Source: an uncultured Clostridium sp. (GTDB taxonomy: Bacteria; Bacillota; Clostridia; TANB77; CAG-508). Taken from it: DNA of 64,000 bases. Where the stretch lies: the NCBI GenBank assembly GCA_946495655.1, contig CAMMDS010000004.1:1-64000 (forward strand). Reading direction: 5' to 3'. The translations under genes and the position numbers were made by a program. Below are positions 37,868 to 53,795 of this stretch, in pieces; positions within the stretch are counted from its first letter, which is position 1; each line of letters begins with the position of its first letter. Below the pieces are notes generated by a model that worked only from the letters and a program-made list of their open reading frames with translations, was not told the DNA's origin and made no database searches.

Positions 37868-38003
37868 TTAGGGCATTTTGCCCTAAACAGCAAAAAGGGT
37901 GTCAATACACCTAGCTGGCGAATATTAGGTACTAAAAAATACTACCCAATATTCGTGCAAAATAAATTTTGCTAATTATTAATGCTTCGTAAGCTAGCAT
38001 TAA
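37868..38003. other. Cluster of closely spaced palindromes (candidate oriT/ori or structured RNA)
   Basis: TTAGGGCA-TTT-TGCCCTAA; GGTGT-CAAT-ACACC; CGAATATT...AATATTCG; GCAAAA-TAAA-TTTTGC; TAATGCT...AGCATTA within ~140 bp. Confidence 0.6.
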
Positions 38004-38032
38004 TAAATTTTTATAGTAAGGAAGTGATGAAA

Positions 38033-38656
38033 ATGTGGAGAGATTCAGAGCAAGCTTTAGATAATATTTTTTTATCATATGATAAAATTTTAAAAAGATT
38101 ACAATTATTAGGAATAACAACTAAACATGGTAAAGAAGTAAAGCATGTAGATTTAAGAAAAGCTGTAGATGTTATGTTGGAAAAACATCCAACTTGCAGA
38201 TGGAGAAGTGAAAAAATAAGAAGTAGAAAATATTTAATTCTAATAGAGGGATATGAATGGATAAAACGAGTGTATTTTGAAAAAGAAAAATCTTTAATAG
38301 ATGCTGATATAAATTTTTTTGAAACCAGAATTAAATTGTACGAAGATCTTTTGAAAGTAGAACATAATGAAAATTGGTGGAATGAAGATATGGATATAAA
38401 ACAATTAGAAAAATATTTTAATAGAGCAAAATCTAGTATAAGAAAAGCAATTAAGAAGATGTGCGATAATGGCTTTAGTAGTTATAAATATTTAAATAAT
38501 AATAAAGTTGTTATTTCAAGTAGAGGAGTTGAATGGATTTGTAAAAATGTGTTTAAGCAAAAGTATTTAGAGTTATTGGAAAAATATAAAATGGAGTTAA
38601 CAGAGATATATATTGAAAAAGGATATATTTATGATGAATTTTTTGGAAAAAATTAA
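38033..38656 (+). CDS. Hypothetical protein of the integrated element
   Basis: Open frame with RBS upstream of MWRDSEQALDN; no recognised domain. Confidence 0.6.
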   Translation: MWRDSEQALDNIFLSYDKILKRLQLLGITTKHGKEVKHVDLRKAVDVMLEKHPTCRWRSEKIRSRKYLILIEGYEWIKRVYFEKEKSLIDADINFFETRIKLYEDLLKVEHNENWWNEDMDIKQLEKYFNRAKSSIRKAIKKMCDNGFSSYKYLNNNKVVISSRGVEWICKNVFKQKYLELLEKYKMELTEIYIEKGYIYDEFFGKN

Positions 38657-38749
38657 TCTTATAATAATAAATATAAGCTAATATATTGAGAAAAATGTAG
38701 TTTTATGATATAAAATGTAATAGATAATTATAAATGTGGGGGATTTATA

Positions 38750-41700
38750 ATGAGTAATAATGATTTAACATTTTTTACAAATGAACCTGAAAGAAATTTG
38801 TATGAAAGATTTAACAAGATACTTAACCGAAATACACAATTTTTTGATGTTCTTGTAGGATATTTTAGAGCAAGTGGTTTTTATCTAATGCAGAATGCAT
38901 TAGATAAAGTTGAAAAAACAAGAATATTAATAGGAATTAATACAGATAAACAAATTGTGGATATGTTTGAATCAACGCAAGATGAAATTAAGCAATTAAG
39001 TTTATCTAATAAAGAGTCTATTTCAGAATATAAAAAAGAATTAGAAAAAGAGTTTGAAAAATCAGACGATACGGAAGAAGTTGAAAATGGAGTCAATAAA
39101 TTTGTATCTTTATTAAAAGATGGAAAATTAGAAATAAGAATATATACAAAACAACCTATACATGCCAAAATATATATTATGAGGGACTTTAAGGATAGTC
39201 CTGATTTGGGTAGGGTAATAACTGGTTCTAGTAACTTTTCACAAGCCGGACTTGTTAATAATTTGGAATTTAATGTAGAATTGAAAAATTCGGCGGATGT
39301 TCAATTTGCATTAGAAAAATTTGAAGAATTATGGAAAGAATCGGTTGAAATTAATCAAGAATGTGTTGATACAATAGAAAATAAAACCTGGATAAAATCA
39401 GATATTACGCCATATGAATTATATGTAAAATTTTTGTATGAATATTTCAAAGAAGAGATAAATGATGATTTAATAGATAGTACAAAGAACTCATCAAAAT
39501 TTTATCCAGATGGATTTGTCCCATTACAGTATCAAAGAGATGCAGTAATTCAAGCAAAAAGAATATTGGAAAAGCATAATGGAGTTTTTATTTCTGACGT
39601 TGTAGGCTTGGGAAAAACATATATGTGTGCAATGTTAGCACAAGAATTAGATGGAAGATCTTTATTTTTATGTCCGCCAGTATTAATAGATTATTGGGAT
39701 AGAGTTTTGAGCGATTTCGGAGTTAGAGGCTATAAAGTAGAATCAGAAGGAAAATTGGATAAAATAATTGAAGAAGGTACAGAACAATACAGATATGTTT
39801 TTGTGGATGAATCACATAGATTTAGAAATGCTGAAACAGAACAATATAGGCAACTACATGAAATTTGTGTAGGAAAAAGAGTTATACTTATTTCTGCTAC
39901 ACCTCAAAACAATTATACTACAGATATAGCTAATCAATTGTATTTATTTCAATCAAAAAATAGATCTACAATTGTAAATGCAAGAAACCTAGAGTTATTT
40001 TTTGATACTTTAAGAAAAAAGGTAAGATCTTGTGAAAAAGATAGTGATGAGTATAAAAAAGCTGTTAGAGATGCTTCGGAAGAAATAAGAGATAAAATTT
40101 TAAGAGAGGTAATGATTAGAAGGACAAGAACAGAAATTAAAAAAAATTATGCAGATGATTTAAAGAAACAAGGATTAGAATTCCCAAAAGTTTCAGATCC
40201 TATTAAATTAATTTATGAATTTAGCGAAAATACAGAAGATGTCTTTGAAAAAACCATACAAAAAATAGCAGAGTTAAATTATTCAAGATATAAACCATTG
40301 ACTTATGTTAAAGAACATAAATTAAAATCCAGTGAAAGATCTTTGTTAGTTGGTCAAGCTAATATGGGCGGATTTATGAAAGGAATTTTGGTAAAAAGAT
40401 TAGAAAGTAGTAAGTATGCATTTGAAATGACGCTAGGTAGATTTATAGATTCTTATAATGAGTTTATCAGAATGTATAAAGAAAAAGGTATAGTATGGAT
40501 TAGTAAGAAGTTAAATATTATAGAATTGTTAGATAACGAAGATTTTGAAAAGTTGGATAGAGCTTTGAAAAATGAAGATGTTTTTAAATTTAAAGCAGAG
40601 GATTTTAATAGTAACTTTATTATAGATTTAGAAAAAGATTTAAAAATTCTTCAAAGCTTAAAAGACATATGGAATACAGTTCAAACAGATGATAAATTAG
40701 AATATTTTATAAAAGAATTAAAAAACAATAAGAATTTGAAAAACAACAAATTAATTATATTTACTGAGTCAAAAGAAACAGCTGAATACTTAACTGATAA
40801 TATTCAAAGAAGATTAAATGAAAAAGTATTAATGTTTAATGGAACTATGCCTGACAGTATTAGAAATTCTATAAGGGCAAATTTTGATCCTAATTATAAT
40901 AAAGATAGACAAAGAAATGAATATAGAATATTAATTACAACTGATGTACTTGCTGAAGGAATGAACTTACATAGAAGCAATGTAATAATAAATTATGATT
41001 TACCTTGGAATCCTACCAAGATAATGCAAAGAGTAGGGAGAATTAACAGAGTTGGAACCAAGCATAGTGAAATTTTTGTATATAATTTTTTCCCAACAAG
41101 TAAATCAAATGAGCAAATGTCTTTGGAAGAAAATATAATTAATAAAATGCAGATGTTTCATGATATTTTAGGAGAAGATTCTAAATTCTTAACGGAAGAT
41201 GAAGAAGTATCTACACACGAATTATTTAAAAGAATGACTACTATAAATGAAGAAGATGATGGAGAAGTTGATTCAGAACTTTCTTACCTTAAAATCATTC
41301 GTGATATAAGGGATAAGGATAGAGAATTATTTGATAAAATAAAAAATTATCCCAAAAAAATAAAAATAGGTAGAAAAAAAGAAAATATAAACGGTTTAAT
41401 TACTTTTTTCAGAAAAGGATATTTAAAAAAATTTTATATTGCTAACTCTGATGAGACTAAGGAAATTACGTTTGAACAGGCTATTAAATATATTAAAGCA
41501 ATTAAATCTGAACAAAGTAAAAAAGTAAAGGGTGATTATTATAATTTATTACGATTAAATAAAGCAGCTTTTGAAGAGGCAGAAAAAGAGGAAAATAGTA
41601 GTGAAGTAATTTCTGTAAATAAAAAAGGTACTAGTAATGCAAAAAATATTATAAAAGTATTAAAAGAATGTTTAAAAATGGATTACAAATTTACAGATAT

Positions 41701-41947
41701 GGAGATTGACAATATAAATAAAATTATTAACTTATTAGAAAATGGAGAACTTCCTATAAAAATTGTTAAAGAAGGAAATAAGGCAATAAAGAAAATAAAA
41801 GGCATTAACGATATAGCAAAATTTTATAAAGAATTAGAAATAATGATACCAAAAGTTTATCTTGAACAGGAAACAAAGGTTGAAATAAATAAGAAAAAAG
41901 CTAGTAAAAATGAAAAAGAAATAATATTATCAGAATATATTTTTTAA
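38750..41947 (+). CDS. PLD-like nuclease + SNF2-type helicase
   Basis: PLD-type PIHAKIYIMRDF...GSSNFSQAGL; helicase SDVVGLGKTYMCAML, VDESHRFRN, LISATPQNN, TDVLAEGMNLHRSNVIINYDLPWNPTKIMQRVGRINRVG. Confidence 0.88.
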   Translation: MSNNDLTFFTNEPERNLYERFNKILNRNTQFFDVLVGYFRASGFYLMQNALDKVEKTRILIGINTDKQIVDMFESTQDEIKQLSLSNKESISEYKKELEKEFEKSDDTEEVENGVNKFVSLLKDGKLEIRIYTKQPIHAKIYIMRDFKDSPDLGRVITGSSNFSQAGLVNNLEFNVELKNSADVQFALEKFEELWKESVEINQECVDTIENKTWIKSDITPYELYVKFLYEYFKEEINDDLIDSTKNSSKFYPDGFVPLQYQRDAVIQAKRILEKHNGVFISDVVGLGKTYMCAMLAQELDGRSLFLCPPVLIDYWDRVLSDFGVRGYKVESEGKLDKIIEEGTEQYRYVFVDESHRFRNAETEQYRQLHEICVGKRVILISATPQNNYTTDIANQLYLFQSKNRSTIVNARNLELFFDTLRKKVRSCEKDSDEYKKAVRDASEEIRDKILREVMIRRTRTEIKKNYADDLKKQGLEFPKVSDPIKLIYEFSENTEDVFEKTIQKIAELNYSRYKPLTYVKEHKLKSSERSLLVGQANMGGFMKGILVKRLESSKYAFEMTLGRFIDSYNEFIRMYKEKGIVWISKKLNIIELLDNEDFEKLDRALKNEDVFKFKAEDFNSNFIIDLEKDLKILQSLKDIWNTVQTDDKLEYFIKELKNNKNLKNNKLIIFTESKETAEYLTDNIQRRLNEKVLMFNGTMPDSIRNSIRANFDPNYNKDRQRNEYRILITTDVLAEGMNLHRSNVIINYDLPWNPTKIMQRVGRINRVGTKHSEIFVYNFFPTSKSNEQMSLEENIINKMQMFHDILGEDSKFLTEDEEVSTHELFKRMTTINEEDDGEVDSELSYLKIIRDIRDKDRELFDKIKNYPKKIKIGRKKENINGLITFFRKGYLKKFYIANSDETKEITFEQAIKYIKAIKSEQSKKVKGDYYNLLRLNKAAFEEAEKEENSSEVISVNKKGTSNAKNIIKVLKECLKMDYKFTDMEIDNINKIINLLENGELPIKIVKEGNKAIKKIKGINDIAKFYKELEIMIPKVYLEQETKVEINKKKASKNEKEIILSEYIF

Positions 41948-41962
41948 TGGGGGTAAAATAAA

Positions 41963-44900
41963 ATGGCTATTGCAAGTGATAAAACAAAAGAATATTTGCA
42001 AATGCTTGAAGAAAAATTTAATATAAATAAATTTTATGAATTTATAAAAGATTTATTAAATTTAGAGAATGAGAATATAGTAAATGGAAATTGGCAAAAA
42101 GCAACAAGTGAACAGTATAAAAATTATATTGATACAACACAATTATTTGCAGAATACGAAGATGATAAAAGAAGAAAAATAGGAGTTCTTATTATTAAAT
42201 TGCAAGATAATAAACATCCTGCAAATGCAAGAACTATGCAAAGAAATTATATAGCACATTTATTAGATGCCTATAATTTAGATGCTTCTTTATCAGCAAT
42301 ATATAGTAATGCTGACGATACTTGGAGGCTATCTTTTGTAAGGCAAGAAATCGATTTTAGTGAAGGTAAATTAAAATCAAAATTTACTCCGGCTAAAAGA
42401 TATTCATACCTATTTGGAAAAGATGAGCCAAATCATACAGCAAAAAAACAATTAGTAGATTTTATTGAAAAAAATGATAAAAAATATACTATTGAAGAGA
42501 TAGAAGAAAAATTTAGTGTAGAAAAAGTTACAAAAGATTTTTTTGAAAATTATAAAGAAAATTATTTAAAATTGAAAGAAATTTTGGAAAGTAATGAGGA
42601 ATTTATTAGTGAATCTAAAAGATGTGATTTTACTTCTGAAGAGTTCACAAAAAAATTAATGGGACAAATTGTTTTTATATATTTCTTGCAAAAAAAAGGA
42701 TGGTTAGGAGTAAAACTGGTTCCACAAGTTATAAATGTAAAAGATTTTGAAGACATTTATAAAAATAGTGATGTTATTCAGAAGAAAATATTAGATAAAT
42801 ATTATATAACTTTCAATAATACAAAAAAGATAAAAAAAGAATTATTAGAAAGATATAATGAAAACAAACAAGAAATTGAAAATTTATCAGATATATTTGT
42901 AAATACAAAATTTGACTGTAAGTGGGGAACAGGAGAAAAAAGATTTATTAGAAAAATATTTGAAAACTGTGTGAATAGAAACAAAAACTTCTTTGATAAT
43001 TATTTAGAACCTTTCTTTTACGATGCACTTAATAATAAAAGAAAAAACCAATATTTTAGCCTTTTTAATTGCAAAATACCATTCTTAAATGGAGGATTAT
43101 TTGAACCACTAGATAACTATCAGTGGCAAATTGCAAAGTTTAATATAGATAATGAGATTTTTTCAAATAAAGAAAAAACTGGAATTTTGGATTTCTTTGA
43201 TAGATATAACTTTACTATGGATGAAGAAGAACCATTAGAAAAAGATGTCGCAGTTGATCCAGAGATGTTAGGTAAGATATTTGAAAATTTGTTGGATGTA
43301 AAAGATAGAAAATCTAAAGGAGCATTTTATACTCCTAGAGAAATAGTACATTATATGTGTCAAGAAAGTATTGCTAATTTTTTAGTTAATAAAGTTGGTG
43401 TTGATTATAATGAAATAAAAGAATTTATACAATATGGAGAAATGATAAGAGATGTGGATTTAAAAGAAGCTACTAAAGATTCATATTTAGTAGGAAAAAC
43501 AATATTTAAGAATATTGTAAAAATAGATAATGCACTTGAACATATTAAAATTGCCGATCCAGCAGTAGGTTCAGGAGCTTTTCCTTTAGGAATTTTAAAC
43601 GAAATTGTTAAGTTAAGAGATATATTAACATCATATATGTTGATATATAACAGACTAGGATTATTTGGTAAAAAATATTCAGAAGAACAGATAACTAATT
43701 ATAAAAGAAGTATTTATCAATTAAAGTGGAATACCATAAAAAATAGTATATATGCAGTTGATATTGAAAATAGTGCGATTGATATTACAAAACTTAGATT
43801 ATGGTTATCAATAGTAGTTGATCAAAATGATGATCCTGAGCCATTGCCAAACTTAAATTGCAAAATTATGCAAGGTAATTCATTAATTGATGAATATGCA
43901 GGGATAAAGCTTATTGATAAAAAATTTATAGATGAGCTAAAAGATAGACAAAATGTTACATTTAATAATGGTGGAAAAATTAAAAGTGGAAAGAAAATGA
44001 TTGAAGTTTCTTCAAATCAAATTCAATTTGGGGATGGTCAAAAGAAAGCTCAAATAGATGACCTTATAAACTTAAAACTAGAATTATATGGAGAAAATGA
44101 TCCTGAAAGAAAGAAAATATTACTTGAGAAAATACAAACAGCTAGAAAAGAATTATTGAAACTAAATTTCATAGGAACAAATAAAGAAAAAGAATTATTT
44201 GAAATAGATAAATCACATAATAAACCATATTTTGCTTGGAGATTAGAGTTTATAGAAGTATTTATTGAAAATGATGGTTTTGATATAATAATAGGTAATC
44301 CTCCTTATATTGGACAAAAAGGTCATAAAGAATTATTTGAACAAATGAGTAATAATGAAAATTTTGAAAAAAAGATGGATTACTGGTACTTTTTTTTACA
44401 TAATGCTTATGAGATGACAAATGAGATTGGTATTGTTTCCTATATCACTCCAAATTATTGGATAACAGCACAAGGTGGAAAAAAATTAAGAAACAGAATA
44501 GTGAATGATTTTTCATTTATTAAATATATTAATTTTAATGAAAATAAAATATTTAGTGCTGGAATTCATACAAATGTATTTGTATTAAGTAAAATTATAA
44601 AACAAGATAATGAAGTTAGTGTTTGTATTTTTGATAATAATTATGAAAATGATTTCATTAAGCATATGAGCAATCAAAATAATTTTAAAATTAAACAAGA
44701 CATATTATTAAATAAATGGACTAGATTTGTCAATTTTATAGACACATACAATTTAAATCTTTTAAATAAAATGACTCAAAACTGTGAAAAATTATGTGAT
44801 AATGAAAGTGAGGGAAAATCAAAGAAGGGAGTTATTACAGGGAAAAAGGTAACAAACGGAATTTGTAATCTTAATCAAGGATTAGTAACTGGTAAAGATA

Positions 44901-45679
44901 GGTTAATTACAGAAGATATTAATAAAGGAGTTTTTATACTATATCCAGAAGAAATATCGGCTTTAGCTTTGGATGATGATGAAAAAAGATATATCAAACC
45001 ATTTTATAAAAATTCTGATATAAAACAATACTGGATAGATAAAAAAAGTAATACAAATATATTATATGTAAATAATATAAATGACGAAGCTGAACTAAAA
45101 AAGCATCATAATATATATCAACACTTATTAAAGTATAAAGATATTTTACTAGAAAGGTCAGTAAATGGTGTATTAAAGTCTGCTTTTTCTAAAGGAAAAT
45201 GGTGGGCATTAACGACAGATAGACCAAATATAAAATTTGACGGAGAAAATATAGTATTTCCTCAAAGAAGTAAAATAAATAAATTTGCATATTCAAATAA
45301 TGAATTTTATTCTTCTGCTGATATATATTATATGTCATTAAACAAAGAAGAGTATGATTTAAAATATATATTAGCCATATTAAATAGCAAATTGATGTAC
45401 TTTTGGCTTTATTGGATGGGAAAAAGAAAAGGAGAAGCATTAGAACTATATTTGGAGCCTTTACAGTTTGTACCTATAAAAAAAATTAGCAAAGAAGAGC
45501 AAATCAGTTTTATTAAAATTGTAAATCAAATTCTTAAAGATAAAAAAAATAAAGAGGTACTCAAATCAGAGTTAGATAAAAAGATATATAAATTATATAA
45601 TTTAAATGAAGAAGAAATAAATTATATAGAAGAATTTTATAATAAAAAAATAAGTAGTGAGGATGAAATAAATGAATGA
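41963..45679 (+). CDS. Eco57I/PglX-like adenine-specific DNA methyltransferase with C-terminal TRD
   Basis: DPAVGSGAFPLGIL, GNPPYIGQKGH (NPPY), GAFYTPREIVHYM. Confidence 0.88.
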   Translation: MAIASDKTKEYLQMLEEKFNINKFYEFIKDLLNLENENIVNGNWQKATSEQYKNYIDTTQLFAEYEDDKRRKIGVLIIKLQDNKHPANARTMQRNYIAHLLDAYNLDASLSAIYSNADDTWRLSFVRQEIDFSEGKLKSKFTPAKRYSYLFGKDEPNHTAKKQLVDFIEKNDKKYTIEEIEEKFSVEKVTKDFFENYKENYLKLKEILESNEEFISESKRCDFTSEEFTKKLMGQIVFIYFLQKKGWLGVKLVPQVINVKDFEDIYKNSDVIQKKILDKYYITFNNTKKIKKELLERYNENKQEIENLSDIFVNTKFDCKWGTGEKRFIRKIFENCVNRNKNFFDNYLEPFFYDALNNKRKNQYFSLFNCKIPFLNGGLFEPLDNYQWQIAKFNIDNEIFSNKEKTGILDFFDRYNFTMDEEEPLEKDVAVDPEMLGKIFENLLDVKDRKSKGAFYTPREIVHYMCQESIANFLVNKVGVDYNEIKEFIQYGEMIRDVDLKEATKDSYLVGKTIFKNIVKIDNALEHIKIADPAVGSGAFPLGILNEIVKLRDILTSYMLIYNRLGLFGKKYSEEQITNYKRSIYQLKWNTIKNSIYAVDIENSAIDITKLRLWLSIVVDQNDDPEPLPNLNCKIMQGNSLIDEYAGIKLIDKKFIDELKDRQNVTFNNGGKIKSGKKMIEVSSNQIQFGDGQKKAQIDDLINLKLELYGENDPERKKILLEKIQTARKELLKLNFIGTNKEKELFEIDKSHNKPYFAWRLEFIEVFIENDGFDIIIGNPPYIGQKGHKELFEQMSNNENFEKKMDYWYFFLHNAYEMTNEIGIVSYITPNYWITAQGGKKLRNRIVNDFSFIKYINFNENKIFSAGIHTNVFVLSKIIKQDNEVSVCIFDNNYENDFIKHMSNQNNFKIKQDILLNKWTRFVNFIDTYNLNLLNKMTQNCEKLCDNESEGKSKKGVITGKKVTNGICNLNQGLVTGKDRLITEDINKGVFILYPEEISALALDDDEKRYIKPFYKNSDIKQYWIDKKSNTNILYVNNINDEAELKKHHNIYQHLLKYKDILLERSVNGVLKSAFSKGKWWALTTDRPNIKFDGENIVFPQRSKINKFAYSNNEFYSSADIYYMSLNKEEYDLKYILAILNSKLMYFWLYWMGKRKGEALELYLEPLQFVPIKKISKEEQISFIKIVNQILKDKKNKEVLKSELDKKIYKLYNLNEEEINYIEEFYNKKISSEDEINE

Positions 45680-45887
45680 AATAAAATATGAAATAATAGA
45701 ACAACTTGGGGTTTTATCAGAAAGTGAAAAAGGTTGGAGAAAAGAATTAAACTTAATTAGTTGGAATGGAAGAGAACCTAAATATGATTTAAGAGATTGG
45801 TCGGAAAATCACGAAAAGATGGGAAAAGGCATAACATTGACAAAAGATGAGCTAGAAAAATTAAAAAATATTCTTAATACAAACTAA
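45672..45887 (+). CDS. YdbC/PC4-like ssDNA-binding protein
   Basis: IIEQLGVLSESEKGWRKELNLISWNGREPKYDLRDWSENHEKMGKGITLTKDEL; overlaps the methylase stop by 8 bp. Confidence 0.8.
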   Translation: MNEIKYEIIEQLGVLSESEKGWRKELNLISWNGREPKYDLRDWSENHEKMGKGITLTKDELEKLKNILNTN

Positions 45888-45906
45888 TACAAGAGGAAAT
45901 AACAAC

Positions 45907-47100
45907 TTGGAAAATTCAAGTATTAAAATAGATATACATAGTCTATATGAAATATTGCAAGATAATTTTTCAATAGCCTTTTTGGGAAAAGTTTTAAATA
46001 AAATTAATAATATTGAAGCTAAAATTGCAATTCAAGAATTTATTATTGACTTTTCTCCAGTTTTAATATATGAAGCTTATTTGTTTTTGAAGAGTAATAA
46101 TCTAATAGAAGAAAATAAATTTTACAAAAGCAAAGAATTAAAAAATAAAGTTGAAGAATATAGAATGATTACTGCGAAGAAAAAAGTAAAGGAATCAGAC
46201 TATATAAAATCAATAACAGAAAAGATGGGGATTATTTTATCTGAAAATGTTTATGATATTAATGTCATTTCGAGCAATAATCAAGTAAAAGGATTTAATT
46301 TTGCAGAATATAAAAAAAGAGAAGAAAAAGAGTTTTTGGAAATGTGTTATTCAACCAATCTTGAATTTTCAAAAGTCACATTTAAAGAATTAACTGGCAT
46401 TTCCGAAATTGATTATAATAATATAATAAATTTGATTATAGAAAATAAAACTGAAGACATAGAAGAACTTGAAAAAAGCTTAGCAGGTAATAGATATAGT
46501 TATAAAAGTTCTAAATTATTTGGAGATACAAATATTCAAGATGATGATAAATTTTTTATTTTATATAGATTTAATACTGTAAACACAATAATAGAATTAA
46601 AAAATTTCTTAAATAAAAATAAAATAGTAATAGATACAAATAATGGTCTATCAATTAATATTGATAAATTTATTGATAAAATAATAGCTTTAGAAATCGA
46701 TGTACTCGGTAGAGATATACAATCTTTGAATACGGAATTTATTAAGAACTTAGGCAAAAAATTAGACGAAAAAATGTTAAATAATAAAAAGACAAAAGCC
46801 GGAGAAAACTTTTATCAATTAAACAGGAAATTAAGAAATAATATTCATTATAGTAAAATTGAAGAACTAGATAAAGACATATATTGTGAGGTAGTAAATT
46901 TACAAGAAGAATATTTATACAAAGTACATAATGAAATGGAAAATAATATGCATTTTAGCCTTGATGAAGAAGATATTTTAATGAATAAATTTTTTTATTA
47001 TTGTAATGAAAATAATATTAGTGAAGAAGAAATTATAGAAAATTATAATGATTATTATACTCAATATTATTTTAAGAAATATATAGATAGAAAATTATGA
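45907..47100 (+). CDS. Hypothetical protein, last gene of helicase/methylase operon (TTG start)
   Basis: 397-aa open frame behind an AGAGGAAA RBS; C-terminal RKLRNNIHY reminiscent of HEPN-type RxxxH motifs (weak). Confidence 0.55.
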   Translation: MENSSIKIDIHSLYEILQDNFSIAFLGKVLNKINNIEAKIAIQEFIIDFSPVLIYEAYLFLKSNNLIEENKFYKSKELKNKVEEYRMITAKKKVKESDYIKSITEKMGIILSENVYDINVISSNNQVKGFNFAEYKKREEKEFLEMCYSTNLEFSKVTFKELTGISEIDYNNIINLIIENKTEDIEELEKSLAGNRYSYKSSKLFGDTNIQDDDKFFILYRFNTVNTIIELKNFLNKNKIVIDTNNGLSINIDKFIDKIIALEIDVLGRDIQSLNTEFIKNLGKKLDEKMLNNKKTKAGENFYQLNRKLRNNIHYSKIEELDKDIYCEVVNLQEEYLYKVHNEMENNMHFSLDEEDILMNKFFYYCNENNISEEEIIENYNDYYTQYYFKKYIDRKL

Positions 47101-47348: not shown

Positions 47349-48275
47349 ATGTTAGGGAAAAAAATAAAAAAATATAGAGATGAAAAAAAATTGACTCAAT
47401 TAGAGATTGCAGAGGTATTAGGAGTAAAGCCAGCTACAATATCTAAATACGAGGCTGGAACTTTAGAGCCTAATATTGAATCATTAAAAAAATTAGCTGA
47501 ATTGTTTGGAGTTTCAGTTGATGAATTATTAAAAGAAGATGAATTTGATGTTTCTAAGATAAATGTATTAAAAGTTTTAAGAGAACAAAAAGAAATGAAA
47601 CTAAGAGGAAATTTGTATCACAATACACAGATAATTTTTGCATATAATACAAACCACATTGAGGGAAACAAATTAACAGAAGACCAAACAAGATACATTT
47701 ATGAAACCAATACGTTATTGACAGAAAAAGAATCAATTACAAATTTAGATGATATTATTGAAACTGTCAATCATTTTGGATTAGTTGATTATATGCTGGA
47801 TGTAGCAGATGAAGAGCTAACAGAAGAAATGATTAAAGAATTTCATAAAATATTGAAAGAGGGAACATCAGATGGTAGAAAAGACTGGTTTAATGTTGGC
47901 AACTATAAAAAGTTAGCAAATGAAGTTGGAAATATGAAAACATCATTACCTAAAAATGTACAAAAAGACATGGTAAAACTACTGCAATGGTATAATTCAT
48001 TAGGAAAGATAAAAATAGAAGATATAATAGAATTTCATTATAGATTTGAATGTATTCATCCATTTCAAGATGGAAATGGTAGAATAGGTAGAATTATAAT
48101 GTTTAAGGAATGCTTAAAAAATAATATTATTCCATTTATTATATTAGATAAGAATAAATTATTTTACTATAGAGGGTTAAAAGAATATAAAGATGAAAAA
48201 GGTTATTTAATAGATACTTGCTTAAATGCACAAGATCAATATATTGAAATGATTAGATATTATTTAAAATATTAA
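47349..48275 (+). CDS. XRE HTH + Fic domain protein
   Basis: HTH LTQLEIAEVLGVKPATISKYEAG; Fic motif HPFQDGNGRIGR; inhibitory-helix-like TNHIEGN. Confidence 0.9.
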   Translation: MLGKKIKKYRDEKKLTQLEIAEVLGVKPATISKYEAGTLEPNIESLKKLAELFGVSVDELLKEDEFDVSKINVLKVLREQKEMKLRGNLYHNTQIIFAYNTNHIEGNKLTEDQTRYIYETNTLLTEKESITNLDDIIETVNHFGLVDYMLDVADEELTEEMIKEFHKILKEGTSDGRKDWFNVGNYKKLANEVGNMKTSLPKNVQKDMVKLLQWYNSLGKIKIEDIIEFHYRFECIHPFQDGNGRIGRIIMFKECLKNNIIPFIILDKNKLFYYRGLKEYKDEKGYLIDTCLNAQDQYIEMIRYYLKY

Positions 48276-48295
48276 TTCGAAAGAGAGAAAATAGT

Positions 48296-48643
48296 ATGAA
48301 GTATATAATGAAATTAAATCCAAAATATTTTGAATATGTAAAAAACGGAACTAAAAGAGTAGAAGTTAGACTTAATGATGAAAAAAGAAAAAGTATGAAA
48401 GTGGGAGACACAATTATATTTCAAAAAGAACCAGAGTTAAAAGAAGAAATAAACACTCAAATAGTTAATTTAATAGTAAAGAGAAACTTTAAAGAATTAA
48501 TTAGAAATCTAGATGTTAGTGAATATTCTGATAAAAGTGAATCAGAAGAAAAATTTTTAAAAGATTTGTATATGTTTTACACAAAGAATCAAGAAGAAAA
48601 ATATGGAGTTGTAGGAATACAAATAAAAATTAAAAAGGGGTAA
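48296..48643 (+). CDS. ASCH-domain protein
   Basis: IMKLNPKYFEYVKNGTKRVEVRLNDEKRKSMKVGDTIIFQ matches the ASCH signature. Confidence 0.78.
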   Translation: MKYIMKLNPKYFEYVKNGTKRVEVRLNDEKRKSMKVGDTIIFQKEPELKEEINTQIVNLIVKRNFKELIRNLDVSEYSDKSESEEKFLKDLYMFYTKNQEEKYGVVGIQIKIKKG

Positions 48644-48645
48644 AT

Positions 48646-50130
48646 ATGAAGGAAAAAGTATTATTAGATACAAATATGATGATATATCTTTTAGACGATC
48701 ATATATTAGATGAAAAAATCTCAAAATTAACTAAAATATTATATGATTCTGATAAATATATAATAGCAATACATCCAAAAACATTTGAAGAAGCAAGGAA
48801 AATAAAAGATCAAAATAGAAAAGATATATTTATTTCAAAATTAGAAGTATATAAGATTATAGATAATCCACCAAAAGCAACGGAGGAGTTTAACAAATGT
48901 GTTGGATGCAAAAATGAAAATGACATCATAGATAATGAAATGTTATATGCTGTAGCAAGAAATTGTGTTAGTTATTTTGTTACAAATGATAAACATCTTT
49001 TAAAAAAAGCAGAGTTAATAAATATAAAAGACAGAGTTTTATCAATTGATGAAGCAATAGAGAAATTCAAACAAGAAGAAAAAGTAGTTATTGAAACACC
49101 TGTATTTATAAAAAAAGAATTTTTATATAACATGAATTTGAATGACGATTTTTTTACCACATTAAGATTTGATTATAAAGGTTTCGATAAATGGTTTATT
49201 AAAAAGCAAAGAAATGGCGAAATGGCATATGTTACGAAGACAAGAGATAATAAAATTACATCATTCCTAATGTTAAAAGAAGAGGATGAAAACGAAGATT
49301 ATTCAGGCTTTGAGAAACCCTTTAGTCCTGCTAAAAGAATAAAAGTATCTACTTTTAAAGTGGCTGATACAGGAAAGAAAATAGGAGAATGCTTTATAAA
49401 AATAATGGTGAATGAAGCTATACAAAAGAATGTAGATGAAATATATGTAACTACTTTTGAAAAACAAGAGTCATTAATATATTTATTAAAGCAATATGGT
49501 TTTGAATTATTTACATATAAAAATACTACGAAAAGTGATGATACGGAAGAAAAAGAAGCTATATATGTTAAAAATATGAAAGATAAAAGTCAATACCCAT
49601 ATGTTCAACTAAAGGATCAAAGAATTTTTATTTTTCCCGTTATACCCAAATATCATAAATTGTTGTTTGAAGATGCTGAAAGAGAATATCAAATAAGCAT
49701 TGATGATACACAAGGAAAAAATACATCTGCTAATGCAATAAAAAAAGCTTTTATCTCTAATGCCAATAGAAAAAAGATAAAATCTGGAGATATTATACTG
49801 TTTTATGCATCTCATGATAAAAAAGCAATAACTACATTAGGAATAGTAGAAACAACTTGGAATGAATTCGAATCTCAAGAAGAAATATTTAATATAGTTA
49901 GAAAAAGAACAGCTTATGATGAAGAAGAATTAAAGCAAGTTGCACGATTAGATAGTTTAGTTATAATGTTTAAGCATTATATTACATTCAAAAATCCAAT
50001 AACTTATGAGTTTTTGTATAACAATGGAATTGTAAACGGATATATTCAAGCACCAATAAGTATAGAAAAGGAAGATTTGGAAAAAATAATTGAACAAAGC
50101 CAAACACAAAATATGTTTGAAATATGCTAA
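48646..50130 (+). CDS. Three-domain fusion: PIN + GNAT + C-terminal PUA/EVE/ASCH-like domain
   Basis: PIN: VLLDTNMMIYLLDD...ENDIIDNEMLYAVARNCVSYFVTNDKHLLKKA; GNAT-like: IKVSTFKVADTGKKIGECFIKIMVNEAIQKNVDEIYVTTFEKQESLIYLLKQYGFELF; C-term: KIKSGDIILFYASHDKKAITTLGIVETTW. Confidence 0.75.
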   Translation: MKEKVLLDTNMMIYLLDDHILDEKISKLTKILYDSDKYIIAIHPKTFEEARKIKDQNRKDIFISKLEVYKIIDNPPKATEEFNKCVGCKNENDIIDNEMLYAVARNCVSYFVTNDKHLLKKAELINIKDRVLSIDEAIEKFKQEEKVVIETPVFIKKEFLYNMNLNDDFFTTLRFDYKGFDKWFIKKQRNGEMAYVTKTRDNKITSFLMLKEEDENEDYSGFEKPFSPAKRIKVSTFKVADTGKKIGECFIKIMVNEAIQKNVDEIYVTTFEKQESLIYLLKQYGFELFTYKNTTKSDDTEEKEAIYVKNMKDKSQYPYVQLKDQRIFIFPVIPKYHKLLFEDAEREYQISIDDTQGKNTSANAIKKAFISNANRKKIKSGDIILFYASHDKKAITTLGIVETTWNEFESQEEIFNIVRKRTAYDEEELKQVARLDSLVIMFKHYITFKNPITYEFLYNNGIVNGYIQAPISIEKEDLEKIIEQSQTQNMFEIC

Positions 50131-50160
50131 AAAATACACTTAAAACAGTGTATTTTTTTT
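50130..50160 (+). terminator. Intrinsic terminator
   Basis: AAAATACACTTAAAACAGTGTATTTTTTTT. Confidence 0.75.
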
Positions 50161-50169
50161 GTGAAAGTA

Positions 50170-50230
50170 TTTACAAGTTAATAATTATTATATATAATAT
50201 TAACAAATATGCTTATAAGCATATTTGTTA
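50170..50230 (+). promoter_or_regulatory. Promoter with 30-bp perfect palindromic operator
   Basis: TTTACA (50170-50175) - 17 nt - TATAAT (50193-50198), then TAACAAATATGCTTATAAGCATATTTGTTA (50201-50230). Confidence 0.8.
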
Positions 50231-50242
50231 AAAGGAGAAAAA

Positions 50243-50608
50243 ATGAGTAAGAAATTTGGAGAATTGGTGAAGGAATATAGAGGAAAAAGGACTTTAAAAG
50301 AACTAGGAGATGAAATAGAAATTACATCAGCTTATCTATTGGATATAGAAAAAGGAAATAGATTTCCATCTAAGGATAAATTAGATAAATTAATAAAAGT
50401 ATTTGATTTAAAAAAAGAAGAAAAAAATACGTTCTATGATTTGGTAGCTAAAGAGAGTCCAAATAAATATAAAGTTTCAGTCGACATAGCAGAATATATT
50501 ATGAAAAATGAATATTTAAGAAATTTTATTAGAATAGCTAAGGATAAACAGGTAGATAATAGTTATTGGAAAAATAAAATTCAAGAATTAGAAAGTGAGA
50601 GTAAATAA
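50243..50608 (+). CDS. XRE-family HTH regulator
   Basis: LVKEYRGKRTLKELGDEIEITSAYLLDIEKGNRFPSKDKLDKLIKVFDL; AAAGGAG RBS supports ATG 50243 over the TTG start. Confidence 0.85.
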   Translation: MSKKFGELVKEYRGKRTLKELGDEIEITSAYLLDIEKGNRFPSKDKLDKLIKVFDLKKEEKNTFYDLVAKESPNKYKVSVDIAEYIMKNEYLRNFIRIAKDKQVDNSYWKNKIQELESESK

Positions 50609-50611
50609 GTT

Positions 50612-50980
50612 ATGTGTAATATGTTAATTTCAATAAATCCAGAACATGTAGAAAATATTTTTAATGGTAGTAAAAGATATGAATATAGAAAAATAAAATG
50701 CAGACAAGATATAGATAAAATAATAATATATTCCACTGCACCAATTATGAAAGTAGTAGGAGAAGCAAAAATTGAGAAAATTTTAGTAGATTCACCAGAT
50801 ATGATATGGGAGGAAACTAAAAAATATTCGGGAATAGATTTAGAATTTTATCATAAATATTTTAAAGATAGAACTAAAGCTGTAGCATATAAATTAACAG
50901 ATATAAAAAAATATAATAAGCCTAAAGAATTATCTAGTTATGGAATTAAGACAGCACCTCAATCATTTATTTATGTATAA
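50612..50980 (+). CDS. ASCH-domain protein (second)
   Basis: MLISINPEHVENIFNGSKRYEYRKIKCRQDIDKIIIYSTAPIMKVVGEAKIEKIL. Confidence 0.78.
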   Translation: MCNMLISINPEHVENIFNGSKRYEYRKIKCRQDIDKIIIYSTAPIMKVVGEAKIEKILVDSPDMIWEETKKYSGIDLEFYHKYFKDRTKAVAYKLTDIKKYNKPKELSSYGIKTAPQSFIYV

Positions 50981-51871: not shown

Positions 51872-52672
51872 ATGAATGCATGGACAAAAATCAGTGCAGA
51901 ATTGGCACAACAAAAAAATTATTTAGATGAACTATATAAAGTATATCCAATAACACAAAATCCAAAGAGAGAACTTTCTAAAGAAAATGAAAAAGATATA
52001 AGAGAAGCTTTTGATAATAAAGATGATGAAAAATTGATTGTAAGCCTACTAAAACTTAAATTGTTTCCAATAAAAGATTCTTTTGTTGCATACTTAAAAA
52101 AGGATAAAGAAGCGATAAGTCGTAATCCTCAAACAGTTAACAGAATCGCTGAAATTCTATATCAAATGGGTATAGATGAGATAATGGAAAAATGTACTGC
52201 ACCAAAAGAAACAAACAGACAAATAGGTCCTATGTTTAAAAAATGGATTGATAAAGGAACATTAGGTGCACCAGTTATAAAAAATAGTGAAGAATTTTTA
52301 AATTATGATGGGAATTGTATCTTTAATTCTTCAGATATTGAAATGGAAAAATTTGCAGCAAAATACTTAGGATTTACTAGAGAAAAAGGAATTGATTTTA
52401 TTGCAAAATTTAATAATAAATATGTAATTGCAGAAGCAAAATTCTTAACAGATTTTGGTGGACATCAAAATGCACAATTTAATGATGCCGTTAGCACTAT
52501 GCAAAACTCATTTGAAGGTAAGAAAGTAGCTAATGAGATTATACCAATAGCAATTATGGATGGTGTATTATATATTCAAGGGAAGAAAAAAATGTATAGA
52601 TATTTGCAGAATCATCCAGACCAAATTATATTATCTGCTTTAGTATTAAGAGAATTTTTGTATTCTATATAG
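51872..52672 (+). CDS. Type II restriction endonuclease, Tsp45I-like
   Basis: NAWTKISAELAQQKNYLDELYKVYP...GIDFIAKFNNKYVIAEAKFLTDFGGHQNAQFNDA: D-(E/Q)AK nuclease-type motif; paired with methylase. Confidence 0.75.
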   Translation: MNAWTKISAELAQQKNYLDELYKVYPITQNPKRELSKENEKDIREAFDNKDDEKLIVSLLKLKLFPIKDSFVAYLKKDKEAISRNPQTVNRIAEILYQMGIDEIMEKCTAPKETNRQIGPMFKKWIDKGTLGAPVIKNSEEFLNYDGNCIFNSSDIEMEKFAAKYLGFTREKGIDFIAKFNNKYVIAEAKFLTDFGGHQNAQFNDAVSTMQNSFEGKKVANEIIPIAIMDGVLYIQGKKKMYRYLQNHPDQIILSALVLREFLYSI

Positions 52673-52688
52673 TGAAAGAGAGAAAGAA

Positions 52689-53795
52689 ATGGAATTATAT
52701 TATAAAAACAAAAAAAGCCAAACCCAAATATTAAAAAATGCAGCTAAAGTAAAATATAATATTAATTTGGATAATAATTCATTATTATTTAAAGGAGATA
52801 ATTTCTCTGCTCTATCATTTCTATTAAAAGACTACAAAAACAAAATCGATCTAGTATATATAGATCCACCATTTAATACACTAAACGATTTTTATGTTTC
52901 TGATACGAGAGCAAATTCAATTAGTTCAAATAAAAATTCTACATTGGCATATTCAGATAAAATGAGTAAAGAAGAATATTTAGAATTTTTAAGAGAACGT
53001 TTAGTGTTAATCAGAGAATTATTATCTGAGAAAGGTTCTTTGTATTTGCATATAGATTATAAAATAGGACATTATGTAAAAATTATTACGGATGAAATTT
53101 TCGGAGAAGAAAATTTTAAAAATGATATTACACGAATAAAATCTAATCCTAAAAATTTTTATAGAAAAGCATATGGTAATGAAAAAGATTTGATATTATT
53201 TTATTCTAAAAACAGCAAAACCAATATATGGAATGATTTAAGAATACCTTTAGAAGATGATGAAATAAATGAAAAATTTAAAAAAGTAGATGAAAACGGT
53301 AGAAGATATACAACAATTCCTTTACATGCTCCAGGAGAAACAAAGAACGGAATTACAGGACAACCTTGGAGAAATATTCCTGTACCCAAAGGTAGGCATT
53401 GGAGAACTGATCCAACAGAATTTGATAAGCTAGACTCTCAAGGAGATATAGAATGGTCATCAACTGGAAACCCTAGAATAAAAAAATATGCAGATCAGCA
53501 TGAAGGAAAAAGAATACAAGATATTTGGAAATTCAAAGATCCACAAAATCCAATATATCCTACACAGAAAAATATTGAAATGTTAAAAAGAATAATCTTG
53601 CAATCATCAAATGAAAATAGTATTATTCTTGATTGTTTTGCAGGTAGTGGAACTACACTTGAATGTGCTAATAAATTAGGAAGAAATTGGATAGGAGTAG
53701 ATAATTCTGATGTTGCTATAGATAAAATACAAAGTAGAAAAATTGGAGAATACCAATTTATTGATATTACAAATTATAATAATAAAAAAAAGTAA
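52689..53795 (+). CDS. Site-specific DNA methyltransferase (beta-class N4/N6)
   Basis: VYIDPPFNTLNDF (DPPF) near the N-terminus and LDCFAGSGTTLECA near the C-terminus. Confidence 0.92.
   Translation: MELYYKNKKSQTQILKNAAKVKYNINLDNNSLLFKGDNFSALSFLLKDYKNKIDLVYIDPPFNTLNDFYVSDTRANSISSNKNSTLAYSDKMSKEEYLEFLRERLVLIRELLSEKGSLYLHIDYKIGHYVKIITDEIFGEENFKNDITRIKSNPKNFYRKAYGNEKDLILFYSKNSKTNIWNDLRIPLEDDEINEKFKKVDENGRRYTTIPLHAPGETKNGITGQPWRNIPVPKGRHWRTDPTEFDKLDSQGDIEWSSTGNPRIKKYADQHEGKRIQDIWKFKDPQNPIYPTQKNIEMLKRIILQSSNENSIILDCFAGSGTTLECANKLGRNWIGVDNSDVAIDKIQSRKIGEYQFIDITNYNNKKK

Follow-up and report, generated by a model that had tools for sequence, protein, structure and literature searches.

Relation to Described Systems

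Proteins that fuse a PIN, a GNAT and an EVE domain were described by Bell, Wolf and Koonin (2020), together with a near-constant ASCH neighbour, an occasional helix-turn-helix (HTH)-ASCH fusion, an AAA_17 companion and a restriction-modification (RM) neighbourhood. These authors credited Iyer et al. (2013) for PIN-GNAT-EVE/ASCH systems and proposed a toxin-antitoxin (TA) system with modified nucleic acids as its target, nothing having been characterised at that time (PMC7641849). We analysed a locus of this kind in an uncultured gut Clostridium sp. (contig CAMMDS010000004.1, positions 1 to 64,000, hereafter the window). It encodes a small ASCH protein (ASCH1), a PIN-GNAT-EVE protein, a predicted XRE-type repressor and a second ASCH protein (ASCH2). 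A sequence-only reading of the same DNA had proposed a candidate new cassette of five genes, the first encoding an HTH-Fic protein; all five open reading frames (ORFs) lie where it had placed them, on the + strand. Judged from sequence, the unit consists of four genes and excludes Fic. Its core, PIN-GNAT-EVE plus ASCH, is already known from Iyer et al. and Bell et al., corresponds to PDC-M11 and has a phage homologue, GevT/GevA, so the claim of a new cassette falls, whereas the accompanying TA-like and defence interpretation is supported. What the present locus and its relatives add is an extra ASCH1, a candidate operator, the split of XRE and ASCH2 into two genes, and naturally dissected forms.

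Domains were assigned by Pfam, NCBIfam and PADLOC scans of the window proteins. The cassette resembles PDC-M11, or (PIN)-GNAT-EVE + ASCH, in its three-domain protein, in the ASCH gene (M11B) next door and in its RM and defence neighbourhood; it differs by its additional ASCH1, by encoding XRE on its own next to a conserved candidate operator, and by the absence of an AAA_17 gene. The literature searched contained no paper on PDC-M11 and no functional characterisation of PIN-GNAT-EVE/ASCH systems. A named relative is a pair from Escherichia phage PhiR47_2, deposited as "GevT toxin" and "GevA antitoxin" (GenBank PV340567.1). Homology to both partners extends along the full GNAT-EVE part and the full ASCH protein (M11A versus GevT, 29%, E 5e-37; ASCH2 versus GevA, 42%, E 1e-34), but the phage pair lacks PIN, XRE and ASCH1, and its two genes overlap. 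A PIN-GNAT-EVE or GNAT-EVE match was found in 16 phage records, every one of which was recovered by the ASCH2 search as well.

The PIN-GNAT-EVE Protein

The 494-aa protein (48646..50130, +) matches PDC-M11A end to end (PADLOC, E 1.8e-139) and carries PIN at approximately residues 1–145, a GNAT-like domain at 152–325 and EVE at 330–494. Pfam recognised EVE alone in the window protein (350–483, 5.6e-7) and missed PIN and GNAT, although PIN_3 was matched in 19 of 34 family members. The sequence-only reading had named structure prediction of this gene as a check on its PIN, GNAT and PUA/EVE/ASCH-like order. The AlphaFold model of the PIN part (pLDDT 90) matches PIN/VapC structures, and the full-length model (pLDDT 82) resembles GNAT acetyltransferases and ASCH/EVE-type folds; together with Pfam assignments in relatives, these models bear out the order, and the C-terminal PUA-like fold can be specified as EVE.

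The acidic catalytic residues of PIN (D8, E49, D96, D115) are kept in 33/33 members. In canonical GNAT enzymes, the pyrophosphate of acetyl-CoA is bound by a loop of the form R/Q-x-x-G-x-G/A. Here the corresponding loop reads [TNH]-G-x-[KRL]-[IL]-G-E in all 34 members, with the R/Q and the middle G missing, so that the domain has the fold of canonical acetyltransferases without the usual sequence of their CoA loop.

ASCH2, the Conserved Partner

ASCH2 (50612..50980, +; 122 aa) is only weakly recognised by the Pfam ASCH profile (0.011) and strongly by PDC-M11B (2.9e-43). We collected 40 PIN-GNAT-EVE loci by a scan of genome contigs; ASCH2 lies within approximately 1 kb of the PIN-GNAT-EVE gene in 38 of them, as its immediate neighbour in most. 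The two remaining loci are one at a contig end (L066) and one with an ASCH1-GNAT fusion (L046). The sequence-only reading had ended the cassette with an HTH-ASCH element, but XRE and ASCH2 proved to be two separate genes without any fusion. Alphaproteobacterial HTH-ASCH fusions, such as that of Rhizobium (L130), do resemble XRE plus ASCH2 joined into one protein; the window XRE showed no significant similarity to the Rhizobium HTH.

ASCH2 is also homologous (9e-22) to the crystallised ZmASCH (PDB 5gus/5guq), a Mg-dependent single-stranded RNA (ssRNA) nuclease (PMC5615036). Most cleft residues are kept: the positions of ZmASCH Y47, R32, Y90, Q127 and S128 are conserved wherever the ASCH2 sequence is complete. 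By contrast, K53 is not conserved, and M46 is found in the window ASCH2 where most relatives have Q.

Streptococcus and Oenococcus phages, as well as loci L145 and L146, carry ASCH2-like genes without a GNAT-EVE match in the phage search. Such genes could possibly serve as anti-toxins against GNAT-EVE systems of the host.

XRE and the Candidate Operator

The XRE-type protein (50243..50608, +; Pfam HTH_3 7.7e-6) comprises 121 aa from ATG 50243 or 127 aa from TTG 50225. The ATG is the more likely start, since it is preceded by a ribosome-binding site and the TTG falls within a palindrome.

Between the PIN-GNAT-EVE and XRE genes lie, in this order, a hairpin followed by a T run (50131..50156, +), a promoter-like site (50170..50198, +) and a perfect 32-bp palindrome (50200..50231, no strand). 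The hairpin is a likely terminator, although it fell below the GC threshold of one scan, and in five relatives of the locus (L135–L139) a hairpin whose stem differs in sequence occupies the same position. The site TTTACA-17-TATAAT, placed to serve XRE-ASCH2, is the top-scoring promoter-like match of the region (11/12, a match to consensus only).

In an alignment of six distinct loci (the window and L135–L139), the palindrome and its edge (34 columns) are identical in L135–L138 (34/34) and match at 31/34 in L139, against 67–73% and 44% conservation, respectively, of the remaining intergenic DNA. The palindrome arm of 16 compares with a longest arm of 14, and mostly 8–10, in 40 shuffled windows. 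In L132 and L133, both of which have lost XRE, the palindrome has decayed or is missing. The natural inference is that XRE binds this candidate operator and autoregulates XRE-ASCH2. Regulation of further genes by XRE was considered and rejected, as no second copy of the palindrome was found anywhere in the genome with up to 3 mismatches.

ASCH1 and the Acetylcytidine Question

ASCH1 (48296..48643, +; 115 aa) ends 2 bp before the ATG of the PIN-GNAT-EVE gene. It is recognised by Pfam as ASCH (8.8e-9), and its relatives in the PDB are the archaeal ASCH structures 2z0t, 1s04 and 1xne. The ASCH1 proteins of the cassette form one clade (93/86) of a widespread ASCH family, apart from its many orphan members, and the protein therefore seems to have been recruited once. 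Several orphan domains (L069, L071, L072, L075, L078, L084, L086, L091) share an ORF with NUDIX, thymidylate kinase, RlmCD-type methyltransferase, GNAT, KptA-like or MazG-like domains, these names having been assigned by eye.

E. coli YqfB, an ASCH-fold N4-acetylcytidine (ac4C) amidohydrolase, uses Thr24 in catalysis, and its T24A mutant is inactive (PMC6972931). ASCH1 has the same fold, and the Lys and Arg positions of the K-x-x-T-x-R motif (K21 and R26) are kept in both the ASCH1 and ASCH2 families. The nucleophile position, however, is occupied by Glu throughout, in 20/20 ASCH1-family and 28/28 ASCH2-family members (48/48), and no convincing profile match to YqfB was obtained. We therefore rejected ASCH1 as a YqfB-like ac4C eraser; on these residues, such an activity is unlikely unless it proceeds by another chemistry.

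Distribution and Natural Dissections

A second survey, in which 292 genomes of the window's order were searched and the loci then read, added six genomes with the four-gene block (L134–L139), which belong to two families. The recurrence for which the sequence-only reading had proposed a neighbourhood survey is thus confirmed for these four genes, far beyond chance co-occurrence, and fails for Fic. One relative (L134) is nearly identical to the window; in the others, identity to it amounts to 60–80% for ASCH1, approximately 67–83% for XRE and 75–88% for ASCH2, and to 60–84%, 49–91% and 47–91% for PIN, GNAT and EVE, respectively. Among the surveyed loci, only those from the window's order contained ASCH1 and a separate XRE gene; in the majority of the remaining PDC-M11 loci, ASCH2 directly adjoins or overlaps the PIN-GNAT-EVE gene. 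AAA_17 is the commonest Pfam family around the distant loci (10 of 128 neighbours), where restriction enzymes and methylases recur.

Some relatives lack parts of the block. Both ASCH1 and XRE are missing from L132 and L133, L132 retaining a relic of the XRE C-terminus; its PIN also lacks the segment with D96, while its GNAT and EVE are still 77–82% identical. The minimal pair of L140 consists of a GNAT-only protein (167 aa) with ASCH2 after it; in L141, a GNAT-only protein of 168 aa precedes a different ASCH (Pfam ASCH 3.3e-12). In L046/L142, ASCH1 is fused directly to GNAT (287 aa), which suggests a functional tie between the two. In the GNAT tree, where many forks are weakly supported, all these dissected GNATs group with the window clade. 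The natural occurrence of GNAT-only, ASCH1-GNAT and PIN-defective forms makes GNAT with an ASCH partner look like the core, to which PIN and EVE are added as modules. The fusion may, alternatively, be a decaying remnant: in L046, neither XRE nor EVE has left a relic, and the one ASCH2-like match, close to the end, is very short. The fusion was not found in the viral contigs searched.

In one relative (L138, 5626–7109), a frameshift separates PIN from GNAT, for which a real split, decay and assembly error are all possible. Directly upstream of PIN-GNAT-EVE, a macro-domain gene (L133, 4835–5359) or a truncated ADP-ribosylglycohydrolase gene (L132, 4237–4785) was observed in the reverse-complemented loci of these two relatives lacking ASCH1; suggestive as it is, the arrangement was set aside, there being two cases, one with a truncated gene. 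The archaeal prophage psiM100 (L099) carries PIN-GNAT-EVE within a fragment annotated as inserted, immediately ahead of an ASCH gene, in contrast to psiM2, which has the ASCH and no PIN-GNAT-EVE match.

Proposed Function and Alternatives

On balance, and by a modest degree, we favour a chromosomal, infection-responsive module resembling type II TA systems and probably acting by abortive infection. The PIN-GNAT-EVE protein would be a growth-arresting effector acting on RNA (tRNA or mRNA), with the GNAT-like domain supplying the core activity, PIN adding RNA cleavage and EVE directing the protein to modified or structured nucleic acid. ASCH2 would bind and restrain the effector, as the deposited names claim for the phage homologues, and ASCH1, translated just before the effector, may act as an accessory on or with the GNAT domain. 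Autoregulation of XRE-ASCH2 by XRE on the palindrome would make restraint a separate, adjustable transcription unit, and infection would upset the balance of ASCH2 and effector. In its favour stand the near-universal ASCH2 partner, the phage pair deposited as toxin and antitoxin, the intact acidic residues and VapC-like fold of PIN, the GNAT-only and ASCH1-GNAT forms, the conservation of the palindrome and the defence genes nearby. Several observations weigh against this proposal. The literature searched contained no paper on GevT/GevA, whose function rests on annotation. The GNAT CoA loop is degenerate. The defective PIN of L132 and the frameshift of L138 indicate that some copies decay or need no PIN. 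Finally, the XRE gene, the terminator-like hairpin and the promoter-like site separate the effector from ASCH2, unlike the single tight operon of classical TA systems.

Following Iyer et al. and Bell et al., EVE and ASCH could instead read modified bases in the DNA or RNA of an invader and direct GNAT and PIN to it, with no strict antitoxin; this we consider possible, if on the whole unlikely. It is favoured by the place of both domains in a superfamily whose members read modified bases, by the recurrence of RM genes near the window cassette and the surveyed loci, and by an ASCH-HsdS fusion in Methanohalophilus (PMC7641849), but the GNAT-only and ASCH1-GNAT relatives still have an ASCH partner in the absence of EVE and PIN, PIN implies an RNA target, and the phage pair was deposited as toxin and antitoxin. 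By analogy with ZmASCH, ASCH2 itself might be the RNA-cleaving effector, and PIN-GNAT-EVE its regulator or a second nuclease. The homology and the five retained cleft residues speak for this arrangement, which also counts against our proposal; given the lack of conservation of K53 and the antitoxin label of GevA, it seems doubtful. The sequence-only reading had suggested an acetylation-marked RNA or nucleotide switch, which would be written by GNAT, read by EVE and ASCH, erased by ASCH1 in the manner of YqfB and executed by PIN. Suggestive features are the combination of domains, the natural ASCH1-GNAT fusion and the presence of wider ASCH1-family members in one ORF with enzymes acting on nucleotides or RNA; nevertheless, the Glu at the nucleophile position and the atypical CoA loop in 34/34 members make such a switch very improbable.

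Beyond the TA-like proposal, we speculate that the four components form one module containing three PUA-like domains (EVE, ASCH1 and ASCH2). The GNAT-like enzyme, unusual in not using the canonical acetyl-CoA loop, could conceivably have ASCH1 as a second, dedicated regulator, or as a subunit that handles its substrate or reverses its action, and be switched on and off by the two ASCH proteins; this extension is rather unlikely.

The Fic Gene and the Defence Neighbourhood

The XRE-Fic protein encoded upstream (47349..48275, +; Pfam HTH_3 E 1.3e-18 and Fic 3.3e-19) matches PDC-S04 (PADLOC, 9e-108), one example of which gave no defence when assayed by others (PMC12409345). Unlike a cassette member, it behaves as an independent element. 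No Fic gene precedes the four-gene block in L135–L139 (5/6 relatives), homologues with at least 65% identity occur in more than 50 of the 292 genomes, almost none beside the cassette, and among the loci read, Fic adjoins the cassette only in the window and in the near-identical L134. Its membership, claimed in the sequence-only reading, was rejected on this linkage; by its distribution, Fic is a widespread separate element and a passenger here. L046/L142 instead have this Fic (89%) and the same 97-aa flank gene on either side of a Gabija-like GajA/GajB pair, and the site behaves as a defence hotspot.

The cassette sits in a defence island. A candidate defence cluster upstream (37982–47100) includes a PLD (HKD)-SNF2 helicase (38750–41947), a type IIG-like Eco57I enzyme (41963–45679), a 224-aa protein with no assigned family, a PC4 protein and a 397-aa protein with no convincing family match. 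A Tsp45I-type restriction enzyme and an N6/N4 methylase follow the cassette directly (51872–53795). No AAA_17 ATPase gene was found among the window neighbours scanned.

Significance

PIN-GNAT-EVE/ASCH systems occur across bacteria, archaea and phages, and the natural dissections (GNAT-only with ASCH2, the ASCH1-GNAT fusion and the PIN-defective copy) point to a GNAT-ASCH core. The conserved palindrome offers a directly testable candidate site for the regulator. ASCH2, tied both to a crystallised ssRNA nuclease and to a phage gene labelled antitoxin in its deposited record, may play one of two sharply different and testable partner roles.

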